Of a stretch of 32,315 nt of DNA, positions 1 through 9,118 are shown piece after piece. The notes under the pieces are model-generated. The model was not told the DNA's origin and did not search any database. It saw only the letters and a program-made list of their open reading frames with translations. The position numbers and the translations under genes were made by a program. This DNA comes from Gammaproteobacteria bacterium (GTDB lineage Bacteria; Pseudomonadota; Gammaproteobacteria; GRL18). Where the stretch lies: the NCBI GenBank assembly GCA_015231865.1, contig JADGAU010000021.1, forward strand, positions 1 to 32,315, written 5' to 3'. Position 1 is the stretch's first letter, and each line of letters opens with the position of its first letter.

Positions 1-53
1 CCCCAGCGCGACTCGAACGCACATCGGAACCTTAGGAGGGATCTGTTCTATCC
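1..53 (-). repeat. Distal att site: duplicated 3' portion of tRNA-Arg(CCT)
   Basis: 53 nt identical to 9049-9101 inside the intact tRNA; sequence diverges at position 54. The repeat may extend left of the window. Confidence 0.9.
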
Positions 54-159
54 TACAGTAGTATGTGTAAAAAAACAAATTCATTAAATTCAATATGTTA
101 TGTAACCTTGTTTTTTCCTGAATTGTTAAAAATGCAGTAAAAGGCATTGTTTCTAGGTG

Positions 160-187
160 AAAAAAGACCCTATAAAGACCCTAGAAA
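160..187. repeat. 28-bp direct repeat copy 1 (AAAAAAGACCCTATAAAGACCCTAGAAA), possible integrase arm-type site
   Basis: Identical to 8974-9001; contains two GACCCTA units 11 bp apart; lies just upstream of the likely int start. Confidence 0.75.
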
Positions 188-579
188 TGAACTACTATAA
201 CTTAACTAACAAATTCATTGATAAACTCCAAGTTATTGATAAAGAGAAAGAATATACTGACTCACATATCAAATCTTTAAAGCTTCGAGTTCCTAAACTT
301 ACCAAAAAAGACTCTGAAAATATAAAAAAGGTATTTTACCTGTATTACACTTTTCATGGGAAAAGGAATAAATGCAAGATAGGTCGATTTGGTGAAATTG
401 GAATAACTGAAGCTAGACAATCAGCAGAAAAGCTTTTAGCTCAGATTTCCTTGGGTCATGATCCACTAGCTGAAAAAGTTTCTTTGAGAAAAGAATTTGA
501 GAAGAAAAACTCTAATACTCTCAGAAAATTTCTCGATAATAAATATTATCCGTATGCTAATCAAGGTTTGATTTTATAA
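187..579 (+). pseudogene. Tyrosine recombinase/integrase, N-terminal arm-binding (DUF4102-like) fragment; catalytic domain missing
   Basis: KVFYLYYTFHGKRNKCKIGRFGEIGITEARQSAEKLLAQISLGHDPLAEK resembles the N-terminal domain of P4-type integrases; ORF ends after ~130 aa. ATG at 187 preferred over GTG at 157. Confidence 0.8.
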
Positions 580-2659: not shown

Positions 2660-4150
2660 ATGAACCAATCAATATTACAACTCCTACAACAGTCAGAAGG
2701 CAAACAGTTAGAGTTTAAGCATGACTTATCATCACCTAAACCTATTATGAAAACCCTGACTGCTTTTGCTAATACGGCAGGTGGAACTTTAATTATCGGT
2801 ATTACTGACTCAGGTGAAGTTACCGGTGTTGAGAACCCACTCGATGAAGAAGAACGTCTATGCAGCTTAATTGCTGATTCTATTGCACCTAGAATAGTGC
2901 CTACTATTGAAATGGTCACTGTTGAGGGGAAAACTTTATTAATGATTGAGGTCTTTTTAAGCGGCACTCGTCCCCATTTTATAAAAAGCATCGGTCATGA
3001 AAATGGGACTTATGTTCGTTTAGGCTCTACTAATCGTCAGGCTGATAATGATTTAATTGGTGAGTTACAACGAGGGCTTTCAAGAGTTAGTTTTGACTCT
3101 ATGCCTATGCCGCACTTATCTCAGGATGATCTTGATATTAATGCAATAGCTGAGGACTTTAGCAATAAACAAATTAATGATAAGTCATTACAGAGCTTAC
3201 GAATATTAACTACAGCTCAAGGAAAACTTGTCCCTACTCAGGGTGGTATTCTTCTATACGCTAAAGACCGTCGTTTTCATTTTGATGATGCCTGGATTCA
3301 ATGTGGTCGATTTATCGGTAATGATAAAGCCGATATCTTTGACCAGATAGATATAGTCGACCCATTACCTAAAGCGGTTGATAGCATTATGCTATTTCTG
3401 AAAAAACATGCTATGAGAGGAGCTGACTTTTCTGAAATACGTCGTAAAGATATTTGGAGTATTCCTATTGAGATTATGCGTGAAGTAGTTGTTAATGCGT
3501 TAGTTCATGCGGATTATTCTCACCGAGGGACACCGATACGAATAGCCTTTTTTGATAATCGTATCGAAGTTGAAAGTCCAGGTATTCTATTACCAGGGTT
3601 AACTATCGACGATATGAAGCAAGGTGTTTCTCAAATCCGAAACCCTGTTATTGCCAGAATATTTAAAGAACTAGATTTAATAGAACAATGGGGAAGCGGA
3701 ATCCCTGGTATATTTAAAAAAGCACAAGAAGATAAACTCCCCGAACCAGTTATTAAAGAAATCGGGATGAGGGTTAGATTTACAGTAAAACTAAAACCGA
3801 TTGCCCCCTTGACTAAAGAACAGTCTCGAAAAGGAAGTTCAAATACAGGAGCTTCAAATACAGGAGCAGAGTCAGTGACCCAGTCAGATTTACAGCTAGA
3901 GTCACGGCTAGAGTCACGGCTAGAGTCAAAATTAGCGGCTAGAGTTATAGTCGTATTACAACAAGGTGAATTAGGTAAATCTGAATTAGCTGAGTCCCTT
4001 AGGCATAAAAGTGTTTCAGGCGAACTTAATAAACAAGTCAAAGAATTATTAGCTAAAGAACTGATTGAAAGAACTATACCCGACAAGCCTAATAGCCGAC
4101 TACAAAAATATAGACTAACCCAAAAGGGAAAATTAGTGGTTAGTGGTTAG
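2660..4150 (+). CDS. AlbA_2 / HATPase-like ATP-binding protein (COG2865-type putative regulator)
   Basis: QSEGKQLEFKHDL..., FANTAGGTLIIGITDSGEVTGV, REVVVNALVHADYSHRGTPIRIAFFDNRIEVESPG motifs; C-terminal wHTH. Confidence 0.88.
   Translation: MNQSILQLLQQSEGKQLEFKHDLSSPKPIMKTLTAFANTAGGTLIIGITDSGEVTGVENPLDEEERLCSLIADSIAPRIVPTIEMVTVEGKTLLMIEVFLSGTRPHFIKSIGHENGTYVRLGSTNRQADNDLIGELQRGLSRVSFDSMPMPHLSQDDLDINAIAEDFSNKQINDKSLQSLRILTTAQGKLVPTQGGILLYAKDRRFHFDDAWIQCGRFIGNDKADIFDQIDIVDPLPKAVDSIMLFLKKHAMRGADFSEIRRKDIWSIPIEIMREVVVNALVHADYSHRGTPIRIAFFDNRIEVESPGILLPGLTIDDMKQGVSQIRNPVIARIFKELDLIEQWGSGIPGIFKKAQEDKLPEPVIKEIGMRVRFTVKLKPIAPLTKEQSRKGSSNTGASNTGAESVTQSDLQLESRLESRLESKLAARVIVVLQQGELGKSELAESLRHKSVSGELNKQVKELLAKELIERTIPDKPNSRLQKYRLTQKGKLVVSG
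3896..3928 (+). repeat. 12-bp in-frame tandem repeat CTAGAGTCACGG x ~2.8 (LESR)
   Basis: Direct reading: LESRLESRLESKL. Confidence 0.85.
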
Positions 4151-4165
4151 TGGTTAGTGGTTAGT
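4133..4165 (+). repeat. TTAGTGG heptanucleotide tandem repeat x ~4.7
   Basis: Direct reading; overlaps the stop codon of the AlbA_2 gene. Confidence 0.97.
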
Positions 4166-4209: not shown

Positions 4210-4365
4210 ATGATTTTGAAAACGGAAGAATTAATAAAGGAAATTGACCTTTTATGTTTGTCAGAAAAGTTATTATTAGTTGAAGATATACGGGATAAAA
4301 TCGCAAGTAATAATGAAGATATACCAATGCCACAATGGCATAAACTCTTTCCTGTTCTAAAATGA
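4210..4365 (+). CDS. Small antitoxin-like ORF (addiction-module component family-like), 51 aa, possibly truncated
   Basis: MILKTEELIKEIDLLCLSEKLLLVEDIRDKIASNNEDIPMPQWHKLFPVLK; AGGAG RBS; stop overlaps the next start (ATGA). Confidence 0.55.
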   Translation: MILKTEELIKEIDLLCLSEKLLLVEDIRDKIASNNEDIPMPQWHKLFPVLK

Positions 4366-5420
4366 ATACAAAGCAGATTGAAGATGCTTCACATTTATTT
4401 TCTGAGCATTATGGGACTTATAGTGAAACTTCCAAAATTTGCCCCGGAGGAAAAATAAAATTAGGTTTCAACTTTTACAAAAAATTATGTGCCGAAAAAA
4501 ATTGCTTTGTTTCTATGGCGTATATTAATGACACCTTGATTGGTCAGGCTTTTTATATGCTCATGGATACCCCTGGGGGGATTATATCCTGGGTATTGCA
4601 ATTGGTTGTTCATACAGAGCATAGAAGAAAAAGGATTGCGGATCGATTATTGTATTCTGTTTGGGGTTTTTCTAATTATAGAGCGTGGGGCTTGGCAACG
4701 GCTAATCCGCTTACAATTAAAACTTTGGAAGCAGCAACCTTTAGAAAAGTAAAACCTGCTGAGATTTTAAAACATCCTGATGTTATTCAATCTATTGCTC
4801 AGTCTATAGGTTATGTTGGTCTTGAAAAGATTAAGATTAACGAGTCCTTATCGGTTGTTGATAGTAATTTTTGTTCTGATCATAAAGGTTTAGAAAATCT
4901 TAAACGGGCATACAATGCTGAATGGTTTTTAGGAGATTGTCCTGAATGTCATGAATGGTTTGCGGTAATCTTTAGAGAGCAAGATTTTGAAAATATTAAG
5001 CCTGAAAGACTGGAAGCATTGATCACCCACTCTGAAGATACTTTAAATGAGGCTTACTCCAGGATGGGTATAGCTTCACACTCCTGGGCAAAACATACAG
5101 ATTCTGAGGTTCAATATCTTTTGAAGCAAATAGCTTTAAATAAAAATGCCTTTATAGCTGATTTTGGCTGTGGTGCAGGCAGACACCTGAAAGCGTTTAA
5201 GCAGCATGGTTTTGAAAATAAACGCTACAGAAAGGATGAGATTATTCAATTATTAGAAAAGGCAGGATTGGAAGTTTTAGACAGCCGGTATGTTCAGGCA
5301 GGTAAATGGGATAATGCTTTACAGGCAACCGATAAACGTGCAAAAGAAATTTTATTATTTGCCAGCCCCCTAACCACTAACCACTATCCCCCAAAATATG
5401 AATATAGAACAATTAATTAA
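4362..5420 (+). CDS. GNAT acetyltransferase fused to a SAM-methyltransferase fragment (MTase core internally deleted)
   Basis: GNAT-like N-terminus (LQLVVHTEHRRKRIADRLL); FGCGAGRHLKAF motif I followed directly by the MTase C-terminal segment RKDEIIQLLEKAGLEVLDSRYVQAGKWDNALQATDKRAKEI. Confidence 0.7.
   Translation: MNTKQIEDASHLFSEHYGTYSETSKICPGGKIKLGFNFYKKLCAEKNCFVSMAYINDTLIGQAFYMLMDTPGGIISWVLQLVVHTEHRRKRIADRLLYSVWGFSNYRAWGLATANPLTIKTLEAATFRKVKPAEILKHPDVIQSIAQSIGYVGLEKIKINESLSVVDSNFCSDHKGLENLKRAYNAEWFLGDCPECHEWFAVIFREQDFENIKPERLEALITHSEDTLNEAYSRMGIASHSWAKHTDSEVQYLLKQIALNKNAFIADFGCGAGRHLKAFKQHGFENKRYRKDEIIQLLEKAGLEVLDSRYVQAGKWDNALQATDKRAKEILLFASPLTTNHYPPKYEYRTIN
5370..5390 (-). repeat. Inverted-orientation heptamer repeats (CTAACCA CTAACCA CTATCCC)
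   Basis: Reverse complement of the TTAGTGG unit; lies between the GNAT-MTase and the PglZ-like remnant. Confidence 0.8.
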
Positions 5421-5757
5421 AGGCATTAACAGTAAGTTTACGGAATACCGTATTTTATTTTGGTATGACTCAGAACATAGCTTTCAAGAAACTTGGTTTG
5501 CAGATAAATATGAACAAGGTGAAGATTGGAGAAGTTTAGCTTGGTGGATTCATGATCATTTACCACATTGTGGAATGTACTTTTTCCCTAAACTTGCAGC
5601 ATTTAATATTAATTGGAATGAAAAAAATAAAGACAAAAACATCAAAAGCATCAAAAGCTATATTAATCCTAAAGGCACTCTGACTAAACCTGGAATGGAT
5701 AACTATGATGGTGATCATTCCAAATGGTATGAGAGCTTTCCTAAATTAAAAACGTAA
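5398..5757 (+). CDS. Chimeric ORF: PglZ-like (BREX) N-terminal ~30 aa joined to an unassigned segment
   Basis: MNIEQLIKGINSKFTEYRILFWYDSEHSFQET resembles the PglZ N-terminus (RIVFWYD...F); the remainder (DHLPHCGMYFFPKLAAFNINWNE...) does not. Confidence 0.5.
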   Translation: MNIEQLIKGINSKFTEYRILFWYDSEHSFQETWFADKYEQGEDWRSLAWWIHDHLPHCGMYFFPKLAAFNINWNEKNKDKNIKSIKSYINPKGTLTKPGMDNYDGDHSKWYESFPKLKT

Positions 5758-5835: not shown

Positions 5836-8757
5836 ATGGAAATGTCAATTAATGAAACATACCCTATGAACTTAACTTTTACTGATGAACAGGTTAAAGG
5901 TTTATCCATTATCCCTATATCAATGTCTGGTTTAAATATTCGTGTTATTAATGCACTAGAAAAACATGAAAAGAACTCTCTTTACTCAGCTATAGTAGAA
6001 ATAAAATCTGGGCTTAATTCGATTAAAGGAATTGGAACAAAATCAATTGAGGAAAGTAAAGTCGTAGTAGAACAAATTATATCTAGATTAAAGTCATTTC
6101 CTCCTGAAGAAGAAAGTGACCTAGATTATCGGCTTGCCTTATTTGATGGTTTATTTCCTGACAAAGAAGTTAGAAAAGCACTTGAAAGCTTACCAATAAG
6201 TATGATTGGTTTAAGTAATAGAGCGATTAATACTATAGAAAAAAAACATATTTCCAATATATACGAAGCTGTCATCGAAATCAAAACTGGCTTTCAAACA
6301 ACAGAAGGGATAGGAAAAAAAACTATCAATGAAAGCATTCAAATAATAGATGCAATGCTACTAAAGTTAAAAGGTGTTGCCCCTCATTTGATTGACAGTG
6401 TCATCGACCCCAGGACACTTTACTTTAAAGAAGCTGAAGGTAATTTTCTAGCAATATTAAATGAAATAGTTGATATATATTTTGAAAAACAAGTAAAACA
6501 AAACAAAAAAAGAAATAAAAATGTCCTGATAAAAAGGTTTAATCTAGATGGAAGTGGTATTTATAGGCTTGAAGAAATTGGTACATATTATGATGTTTCC
6601 AGAGAAAGAATAAGACAAATTGAAGAAAAAACACTGAAAGAAATAGAATTGTTACTTACAGGGCAGTTAAAAACAAAAGAATGGTATTTAGATAAAAAAA
6701 TCATCAACAATTATAATCAGTTGAAACATATATTATATTCTAAAGATTTTATTATATTGCATTCTGAGCTTCTTGATATCATTGATGGGCAATCTCAAAA
6801 TCAGTTTAATGACTTATACTTACCTCTTTTAATGGAGTTGCTTGGTTTTTTTCGTTTAGCCAAAACCTACACTAATTTTCGAGGTACTATATACGATAGT
6901 TGGTGTAGAACAGATCATTTTAATCCTCCTGATATAGAGTCTTTATTTGTAGCCCTGAATGTTGTCTTTGAAAACCCTGAACCTATTAGTTTATTTGATT
7001 TAATAGTGAAAGTTAAAAAGAAATCACGTAAAAAATTCACAAATGATGTTATACATTTAGCTTTAAAAGTATGTCCTGAAATTGAAATTAATGATGATGA
7101 GCTATACGTTAAACCAGAATTTACTAAATCAACAACTGATAAAGCATATAAAATTTTAGCAATTAATAATGATAAGATGCACTATTCTGAGATATTAAGA
7201 GAAATTAATTCATTAGGTAATAATAAAACGTATACTAGACTAAATTTAACTAATCAATTAGCTGCAGATGATAGGTTTATTTCAATTGGTAAAAGTGGAT
7301 ATTGGGGACTAAAAAAATGGGGAACAATTAATAATATTAGTATTGTCAAAGTAATGGAGAATCTTTTACACAGAATATCAAAACCTGTTTCTTATCATCA
7401 AATATTACAAGAAACACAAAAGATAAGACCAGATGCTAAAGAAAAATCTATTAAAATTTACTTAGATACTAAACCAGATATATTTGCTCGTGTTGATAAA
7501 GATCATTATGCTTTAACAGTTTGGAATTTGGTGTCTTACCAAGGGCAGCGTTCCCAAGCAAGATTAACAAATTCAGAATTTTATGAAAAAACTCTTCAAG
7601 TCCTGCAGAACAAAAACCCAATAAATTTTTCTGACTTTATTAGACAAATGATGAAACTGACTAATTCAAAAAATTCAACTATAAGACAAAGAGTTTTAAA
7701 ATCCCCATTACTTACCGCCCGATTTATAAACTCAAGAGAGAAAGAGATATATTGTGATAATTTAGACAAATTAAAAAATTATAAAGATAAAGATTCAACA
7801 CTTAGATATGAAATACAGAACCGTATAGTAGATTTATTAAAAGGAGAAGACAAACCCATTACTAAGGGGGATTTATATAAAAAACTATCGAAAAATTTTA
7901 CATGTGTAAAACAAACATTTTATAGATATTTAAGTGAAATGAATGGAATCAGGCAGTTTATCGAAAATAATAATTCATATGTAGAGGTAATAGATAAAAA
8001 ACAAAGAAATGAAAAATATATAACCGTTGATGAGTTTAAAAAACTTAGAAATGATATATTTAAACTATCTAGTGATTTAACTGATCTAAAAGTATCATCC
8101 GAATCTAAAAACGAACAAATCGATGAAATATACAAGCTATTAGATAAAGAAAGTGAAAATGCTGATATATCAAAATATCAAAATAATGTAATTATAGAAT
8201 TCCCTAAATATAATCTTTTAGAAAATAATTCGTTAAAATTCTTAGAATCTTCTTACTATCTTTATGATAAATTAAAAGAAGTACAAGGAGATGATTACTC
8301 TCCTTATGTATTGCAATTTTCCCGTGTCATAGAAAATGAGTTGCTTCATAAGTTTTTCATACCTTTTAATAGAAAATTCAATTTATATGAAGATAAGAAT
8401 GAAATTCTAGAAAAAGAAATGAATAACTTTAATACTAAAATATTTGCAAAATTTTTGTATAAAAATAATGAAAAATATACTCTGGGGTCAATGCAAACGA
8501 TTATTGGATTCATATATAAAAGTAATGGAAATACATTACAAAAATCTACTTTATTACAGGTTTTCAGAAAATATGTAATAACCTTAATTAATCCAGACTT
8601 TTTATCTAAAGACAATGTGGATTTACTGTCAACCTTAACTAGTAAATATAGAAACAAAGCTGCTCATACTGAAATAATAACATTTGAGGATGCCAATGAA
8701 TTTTCAAGTGTTACAAAAAGTCTGATTACCTTGTTATTAAACTCTTATAAGTTGTAG
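5836..8757 (+). CDS. 973-aa multidomain protein: 2x RNAP alpha-CTD-like HhH, sigma-70 region 4 HTH, multiple HARE/winged-helix-like repeats, coiled coil, C-terminal HEPN-like domain
   Basis: LPISMIGLSNRAINTIEKKHISNIYEAVIEIKTGFQTTEGIGKKTINES (alpha-CTD-like, duplicated); LIKRFNLDGSGIYRLEEIGTYYDVSRERIRQIEEKTLKEI (sigma4); MHYSEILREIN...RFISIGKSGYWGLKKW (HARE-like); RNKAAH (HEPN-like motif). Confidence 0.85.
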   Translation: MEMSINETYPMNLTFTDEQVKGLSIIPISMSGLNIRVINALEKHEKNSLYSAIVEIKSGLNSIKGIGTKSIEESKVVVEQIISRLKSFPPEEESDLDYRLALFDGLFPDKEVRKALESLPISMIGLSNRAINTIEKKHISNIYEAVIEIKTGFQTTEGIGKKTINESIQIIDAMLLKLKGVAPHLIDSVIDPRTLYFKEAEGNFLAILNEIVDIYFEKQVKQNKKRNKNVLIKRFNLDGSGIYRLEEIGTYYDVSRERIRQIEEKTLKEIELLLTGQLKTKEWYLDKKIINNYNQLKHILYSKDFIILHSELLDIIDGQSQNQFNDLYLPLLMELLGFFRLAKTYTNFRGTIYDSWCRTDHFNPPDIESLFVALNVVFENPEPISLFDLIVKVKKKSRKKFTNDVIHLALKVCPEIEINDDELYVKPEFTKSTTDKAYKILAINNDKMHYSEILREINSLGNNKTYTRLNLTNQLAADDRFISIGKSGYWGLKKWGTINNISIVKVMENLLHRISKPVSYHQILQETQKIRPDAKEKSIKIYLDTKPDIFARVDKDHYALTVWNLVSYQGQRSQARLTNSEFYEKTLQVLQNKNPINFSDFIRQMMKLTNSKNSTIRQRVLKSPLLTARFINSREKEIYCDNLDKLKNYKDKDSTLRYEIQNRIVDLLKGEDKPITKGDLYKKLSKNFTCVKQTFYRYLSEMNGIRQFIENNNSYVEVIDKKQRNEKYITVDEFKKLRNDIFKLSSDLTDLKVSSESKNEQIDEIYKLLDKESENADISKYQNNVIIEFPKYNLLENNSLKFLESSYYLYDKLKEVQGDDYSPYVLQFSRVIENELLHKFFIPFNRKFNLYEDKNEILEKEMNNFNTKIFAKFLYKNNEKYTLGSMQTIIGFIYKSNGNTLQKSTLLQVFRKYVITLINPDFLSKDNVDLLSTLTSKYRNKAAHTEIITFEDANEFSSVTKSLITLLLNSYKL

Positions 8758-8973: not shown

Positions 8974-9001
8974 AAAAAAGACCCTATAAAGACCCTAGAA
9001 A
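8974..9001. repeat. 28-bp direct repeat copy 2, possible integrase arm-type site
   Basis: Identical to 160-187. Confidence 0.75.
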
Positions 9002-9045
9002 ACATTTTGAGAAATGCTACAAACATAACTTATTGATTTTACAAG

Positions 9046-9118
9046 TCTCCCCAGCGCGACTCGAACGCACATCGGAACCTTAGGAGGGATCTGTTCTATC
9101 CGGTTGAACTATGGGGAG
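9046..9118 (-). tRNA. tRNA-Arg (anticodon CCT), CCA not encoded
   Basis: Cloverleaf readable by eye on minus strand: CTCCCCA..TGGGGAG acceptor, D arm GTTC/GAAC, anticodon loop CTCCTAA, T arm GTGCG-TTCGAGT-CGCGC. One U-U mismatch in the anticodon stem. Confidence 0.9.

Follow-up and report, generated by a model that had tools for sequence, protein, structure and literature searches.

Introduction

Domains known from transcription initiation occur as accessories in components of the BREX, Dnd and MZA systems. In PglW of BREX type 2, wHTH modules come after an alpha-CTD-like domain, and these are tied to an effector (PMC12839542); PglW, BrxL and a DndH variant use the same domain types simply to bind DNA (PMC12839542, PMC10853773). 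PbeABCD is antiviral by experiment (PMC6459918) and has been re-described under the name CxC ABC-ATPase-DndE (PMC10853773). Here we analysed a window of 32,315 nucleotides, positions 1 to 32,315 of contig JADGAU010000021.1 from a Gammaproteobacteria bacterium, which encodes a 973-residue protein combining domains of this kind with a HEPN-like tail. The protein is a real and unusual fusion with both halves from defence-linked lineages, and the place of its relatives in antiviral systems suggests that it may function as a single-gene defence protein.

Results

The N-terminal two thirds of the protein

The reading frame starts with ATG and runs for 973 codons with zero internal stops, so the intact gene described in an earlier note on this DNA was borne out. 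That note had read the N-terminal two thirds as two alpha-CTD units, sigma-70 region 4 (sigma4) and HARE, an order that Pfam and NCBIfam scores and alignments support (Table 1). A full-length AlphaFold model built from the single sequence was unusable (pLDDT 34.5).

The duplication of the alpha-CTD-like unit was confirmed by the alignment of the two copies (z = 25 against shuffled sequence) and by PF03118 (RNA_pol_A_CTD), which passes its cut-off over two stretches of the whole protein (27.4 vs 23.8 bits) and reaches 34.2 bits in the isolated N-terminus. Aligned to the RpoA CTD of the same genome, the units score z = 4.1 and 5.5. In the E. coli alpha-CTD, R265, N268, G296, K298 and S299 make the UP-element DNA contacts and the E261 region contacts sigma4. 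Alignment to the genome's own RpoA showed that the equivalents of these five DNA-contact residues are retained in both copies, S299 being threonine in copy 2; the acidic E261 region is not retained.

Region 4 of sigma-70, proposed earlier as a primary-sigma helix-turn-helix, was likewise upheld: PF04545 (Sigma70_r4) passes its cut-off over residues 226-269 (28.8 vs 24.1 bits), and RERIRQIE is identical in the RpoD of the same genome. By its sequence, the recognition helix is of the primary-sigma type. No Pfam or NCBIfam match was found in the protein to sigma region 2, which binds core polymerase and recognises the -10 element, and an assignment to the sigma-70 family transcription factors was rejected on this feature.

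For HARE, PF05066 falls slightly below its cut-off in the whole protein (E 2.7e-5, 24.9 vs 25.9 bits) and lies above it when the middle segment of 429 aa is scanned alone (27.5 bits); the NCBIfam RNAP-delta model TIGR04567 attains its cut-off in the same place (42.5 vs 42 bits). Several HARE or winged-helix units had been claimed. The unit at residues 431-500 is firm and a family HMM backs that at 502-568 (1.7e-6), while three more (at about 360-430, 576-655 and 655-728) gave no significant match in the repeat test, Pfam or the family HMM. When all five winged helices were compared as internal repeats, only two pairs reached p of about 0.01-0.02, so we claim two units.

Table 1 Coordinates of the 973-residue protein gene, its domains and the island features in the window.
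Feature	Position	Strand	Evidence
973-aa protein gene; alpha-CTD, alpha-CTD, sigma4, winged helix (or helices), HARE, winged helix, coiled coil, HEPN-like	5836..8757	+	Intact ORF and domain matches
Alpha-CTD-like unit 1, residues 24-89	5905..6102	+	Aligns with unit 2 at z = 25; equivalents of R265 and N268 retained; family HMM (trained on unit 1)
Alpha-CTD-like unit 2, residues 117-182	6184..6381	+	Pfam PF03118, best stretch 112-168
Sigma-70 region 4, residues 226-269, recognition helix RERIRQIE	6511..6642	+	PF04545 8.6e-7; PDB RpoD sigma4 1.2e-6; z = 16 vs own RpoD
HARE winged helix, residues 431-500	7126..7335	+	PF05066 4.1e-6, 27.5 bits vs cut-off 25.9 (segment scan); TIGR04567 42.5 bits vs cut-off 42
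Second, weaker winged helix, residues 502-568	7339..7539	+	Family HARE HMM 1.7e-6 among 10 proteins; DUF7669 4.9e-4, below cut-off
All-helical HEPN-like module and the coiled coil before it, residues 730-973	8023..8754	+	40% identity, 4e-38 to RecD-like protein tail; homologues L021, L025, L019, L029
R-N-K-A-A-H motif, residues 939-944	8650..8667	+	RNxAAH invariant in 6/6 homologues
Left 53-bp att-like direct repeat, 3' part of tRNA-Arg	1..53		100% identical to 9049-9101
Right 53-bp att-like repeat, within tRNA-Arg gene	9049..9101		Repeat search and ARAGORN tRNA
tRNA-Arg (CCT), insertion site	9045..9118	-	ARAGORN
28-nt direct repeat near left end, arm-site-like	160..187		100% identical to 8974-9001
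28-nt direct repeat near right end	8974..9001		Pairs with 160-187
Integrase remnant, arm DNA-binding domain alone	157..579	+	PF13356 1.5e-12
119-aa ORF next upstream, probably a remnant; its first 32 aa resemble the start of PglZ	5398..5757	+	PADLOC PglZ 1.3e-4 over residues 1-32

The C-terminal HEPN-like module

A C-terminal RNxxxH motif had been noticed and is present as RNKAAH. Across six homologous tail sequences RNxAAH is invariant, and E-x-E and further positions are conserved too. The conserved polar residue that follows the arginine in the HEPN RX4-6H motif is present, and at the level of sequence the motif fits HEPN RX4H. The module shares with HEPN_Swt1 and other HEPN RNases this motif and an all-helical prediction, whereas neither a profile nor a structural match to them is significant. 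The best Pfam match in a segment scan was a weak one to HEPN_Swt1 (E 0.12). An AlphaFold model of the tail from a three-sequence alignment reached pLDDT 63, and from this low-confidence model Foldseek returned no PDB fold match; a profile search against the PDB found no solved relative of the tail (best E 0.47, chance level). The HEPN membership suggested before is plausible on the invariant motif, the all-helical prediction and the weak HEPN_Swt1 match, if weakly supported, and because the fold evidence is weak we name the tail HEPN-like rather than HEPN.

Some relatives of the tail lie close to defence genes. A plasmid of Chondrinema litorale encodes a RecD-like protein of 1493 aa (WP_284689554.1) whose C-terminus matches residues 730-956 by tblastn (40% identity, 4e-38). 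Its residues 11-1231 correspond to the PADLOC phage-defence candidate PDC-S68 (1426 bits), so the module there is an added tail. This PDC-S68 variant is alike in its C-terminal 230-aa module, which is 40% identical and carries YRNKAAH, but has a RecD-like helicase N-terminus with a further segment and no promoter-reader-like platform. Downstream of its gene a helicase matches type IV restriction, and a cas6 gene is near. Stand-alone homologues of the tail were found on an integrative-element-like contig (L021), in a prophage (L025), on a Bradyrhizobium plasmid and on a Streptomyces plasmid; the prophage copy is separated from Lamassu LmuA/LmuB genes by about 1.2-5 kb. The stretch at 3054-8546 of L025 holds both the LmuA/LmuB-like genes and, a few genes off on the opposite strand, the homologue, which has a zinc-ribbon-like N-terminus.

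Relatives of the platform and the Pbe loci

Searching with the middle region retrieved actinobacterial proteins annotated 'sigma factor-like helix-turn-helix DNA-binding protein'. In the members from Microbacterium and Arthrobacter, a single alpha-CTD, sigma4 and a HARE-like helix follow one another as they do in the 973-residue protein. These proteins (e.g. WP_197491897.1) share with it the alpha-CTD, sigma4, a D-x-W stretch and HARE, colinear over about 300 residues; they differ in having one alpha-CTD rather than two and another C-terminus, without a HEPN-like tail. The Arthrobacter protein (L030, 7296-9494), one of the closest platform relatives, is colinear with residues 212-513 (2e-10, pairwise); PbeA (695 bits), PbeC/DndD and further DndD-like genes come after its gene. 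In Nonomuraea, the sigma4-HARE gene sits after a UvrD-like helicase gene. A second large gene upstream of it (L038, 3449-5719) looks alike by eye in its C-terminal part. On two mycobacterial plasmids, platform relatives had no defence genes as neighbours.

Genome G629, which its Rhizobium matches suggest to be that of an alphaproteobacterium, encodes a 1017-aa sigma4 protein (L051, 2926-5979) with significant likeness to the 973-residue protein at sigma4 only. Its gene shares an overlap with that of PbeA (924 bits); next come a gene for a PbeC-like ATPase and a small one, DndE-like by eye. Homologues of this protein lie directly upstream of a helicase gene on two Rhizobium plasmids (L057, 8590-10836; L058, 8542-10836); after it come a gene with the annotation 'CxC ATPase DNA modification system associated small protein', another of ATPase size and a further small one, and these Pbe loci adjoin dndCDE and a cysteine desulfurase gene. 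A sigma4/winged-helix gene is the first Pbe (CxC-DndE) gene on two Rhizobium plasmids and in one alphaproteobacterial genome, with a more distant type beside PbeA in Arthrobacter, and is possibly a fifth Pbe component. The consulted text of PMC6459918 and PMC10853773 makes no mention of a sigma-like subunit of this kind.

The Rhizobium and G629 first-gene proteins are, like the 973-residue protein, large, with a primary-sigma-type region 4 and a weak alpha-CTD-like segment; they differ in that sigma4 alone is significantly common and the effector is a separate HKD-SF2 helicase, PbeA. No linked PbeA-PbeB-PbeC-PbeD genes are found in the island around the 973-residue gene, the genome has no PbeA-level match, and an assignment to Pbe was rejected on these features. 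PglW resembles it in the alpha-CTD-like domain, the wHTH modules that follow and the attached effector (PMC12839542), but has an N-terminal NERD nuclease and kinases, no sigma4 described, and iSTAND in place of the HEPN-like tail. The protein has no kinase or NERD match and the genome no PglZ domain, and an assignment to PglW of BREX was rejected on these features. MzaA of the MZA system has a C-terminal sigma region 4 in common with the protein and nothing beyond it; the MzaA model NF041931 gave 43 bits, from sigma4 only, against a cut-off of 800, and this identity too was rejected.

Rarity of the full architecture

No other genome among those searched, in evenly drawn samples, contained the full-length architecture. 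Plasmids and phages yielded no full-length relative by tblastn, and a pattern scan of genome contigs gave no confirmed match. Besides the protein's own genome, a whole-protein search of 369 genomes of the class returned sigma-factor-type matches only, and a profile search of 349 genomes of the phylum found no second full platform. The C-terminal module was confined to the own genome in searches of 57 relatives, 399 genomes of the phylum and 340 of the class, as was the HARE region among 143 genomes of the class; viral contigs contained no HARE region. Recurrence of the same domain order in islands or defence loci, which had been set as a test, thus holds for each half separately and not for the whole protein.

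The tRNA-Arg island

Identical 53-bp repeats, the right one within tRNA-Arg(CCT), bound an element of about 9 kb that carries the gene as cargo, which agrees with the island location proposed before. The island also carries an ISAs1-like transposase gene and a Schlafen AlbA_2 gene. Beyond residue 32, the 119-aa ORF upstream of the 973-residue gene has zero Pfam matches; it is probably a chimeric or decayed BREX remnant. The genome was found to lack a PglZ domain and any PbeA-level protein (the best match has 27% identity to a generic helicase), so no partner for the 973-residue protein was found.

Several other features were noted in passing. The ORF at 4213-4365 (MKTEELIKEIDLL...) resembles by eye a small addiction-module antitoxin, with no adjoining toxin. 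Tandem TTAGTGG repeats with an inverted copy, at 4133-4165 and 5367-5394, flank the ORF at 4362-5420, an acetyltransferase/methyltransferase-like chimera. Another contig (C109:1-76, L037) ends in a complete tRNA-Arg sequence, of which window positions 1-53 hold the 3' part, and has a different left flank; this end is ambiguous between the left chromosomal flank and an insertion site that is unoccupied in some of the population.

Discussion

Our leading reading, held tentatively at a probability of roughly 0.45, is that the protein is a stand-alone, single-gene defence against invaders (phage or plasmid) in which a DNA-binding sensor half controls an RNase-like effector tail. We favour it because relatives of both halves sit in defence contexts (PDC-S68, PbeA/PbeC and the Pbe operons). 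The sensor would be the N-terminal half, made up of the two alpha-CTD units, sigma4 and the winged helices, HARE among them, and would bind DNA, probably at promoter-like, modified or foreign sites; the DNA-contact residues of both alpha-CTD copies are retained. The effector would be the HEPN-like module, acting as a dimer with R939 and H944, both within the invariant RNxAAH, as its putative RNase active site. The tail would be kept inactive until the sensor engages, whereupon RNA would be cut and the infection stopped. Dimerisation and RNase activity of the tail are putative, as are the DNA target of the protein, its trigger and its defence phenotype.

The tRNA-inserted island that carries the gene as cargo, together with a PglZ-like fragment, supports the defence reading. 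Against it stand a HEPN assignment that is not significant by any model tried, with a tail model of pLDDT 63 and no PDB match; the mycobacterial plasmid relatives without defence neighbours; the absence of a homologue with the whole architecture among the genomes searched; and rhizobial and alphaproteobacterial proteins that share sigma4 alone at significance. The role in a conflict system suggested by the earlier note is backed by the tail on a PDC-S68 candidate and by the sigma4/winged-helix proteins at Pbe/CxC-DndE loci, of which the Arthrobacter one is a clear relative; the whole architecture occurred in no other genome searched.

The main rival, less probable in our judgement, is a DNA-binding regulator, or an orphan accessory subunit of a Pbe- or BREX-like system that has been lost or is encoded elsewhere, which controls transcription or recruits a nuclease in trans while the tail merely dimerises or binds a partner. 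Relatives with the same platform and no HEPN-like tail adjoin helicase-nuclease genes, the PglZ-like fragment lies directly upstream of the 973-residue gene, the mycobacterial relatives stand alone, and many HEPN-like domains are non-catalytic. This account is countered by a genome with no PglZ domain and no PbeA-level partner (the generic helicase at 27% identity being the best), and by RNxAAH in 6/6 homologues, stand-alone proteins included, which goes beyond what dimerisation needs.

A bolder form of the sensor-effector idea, which we regard as unlikely, is a one-protein immune system in which a rebuilt alpha-CTD pair, sigma4 and HARE read invader promoter DNA or RNA polymerase and fire the fused RNase, within a wider, unnoted family of alpha-CTD/sigma4/winged-helix sensors that also supplies a fifth Pbe component.

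Control of the mobile element itself is improbable. A regulator or maintenance factor for promoter control or the exclusion of related elements, rather than phage defence, would suit a gene on a tRNA-Arg island with relatives on mycobacterial plasmids that lack defence genes. The integrase, however, is down to its arm domain, which leaves nothing for element control to do, and the 973-residue gene is intact all the same; among the relatives, no link to integrases was found. Slightly more improbable still is a protein directed at RNA polymerase, which would use sigma4, alpha-CTD and delta-like HARE to attach to the polymerase of host or phage, or to its promoters, and so silence or redirect transcription, the tail being secondary: the best-known homes of all three N-terminal domain types are polymerase-associated, HARE attains the RNAP-delta cut-off and the sigma4 helix is of primary-sigma type, but the core-binding domains (sigma region 2 and the alpha NTD) are absent from Pfam and NCBIfam scans, the sigma4-contacting alpha-CTD surface around E261 is not conserved, and such domains simply bind DNA in PglW, BrxL and the DndH variant (PMC12839542, PMC10853773).

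A single gene that joins transcription-initiation domains to a candidate effector would let one ask directly if the thing sensed is promoter-like DNA or RNA polymerase. The sigma4/winged-helix genes at the Pbe loci of Rhizobium and the alphaproteobacterium, with the relative beside PbeA in Arthrobacter, offer tractable loci for asking the same.
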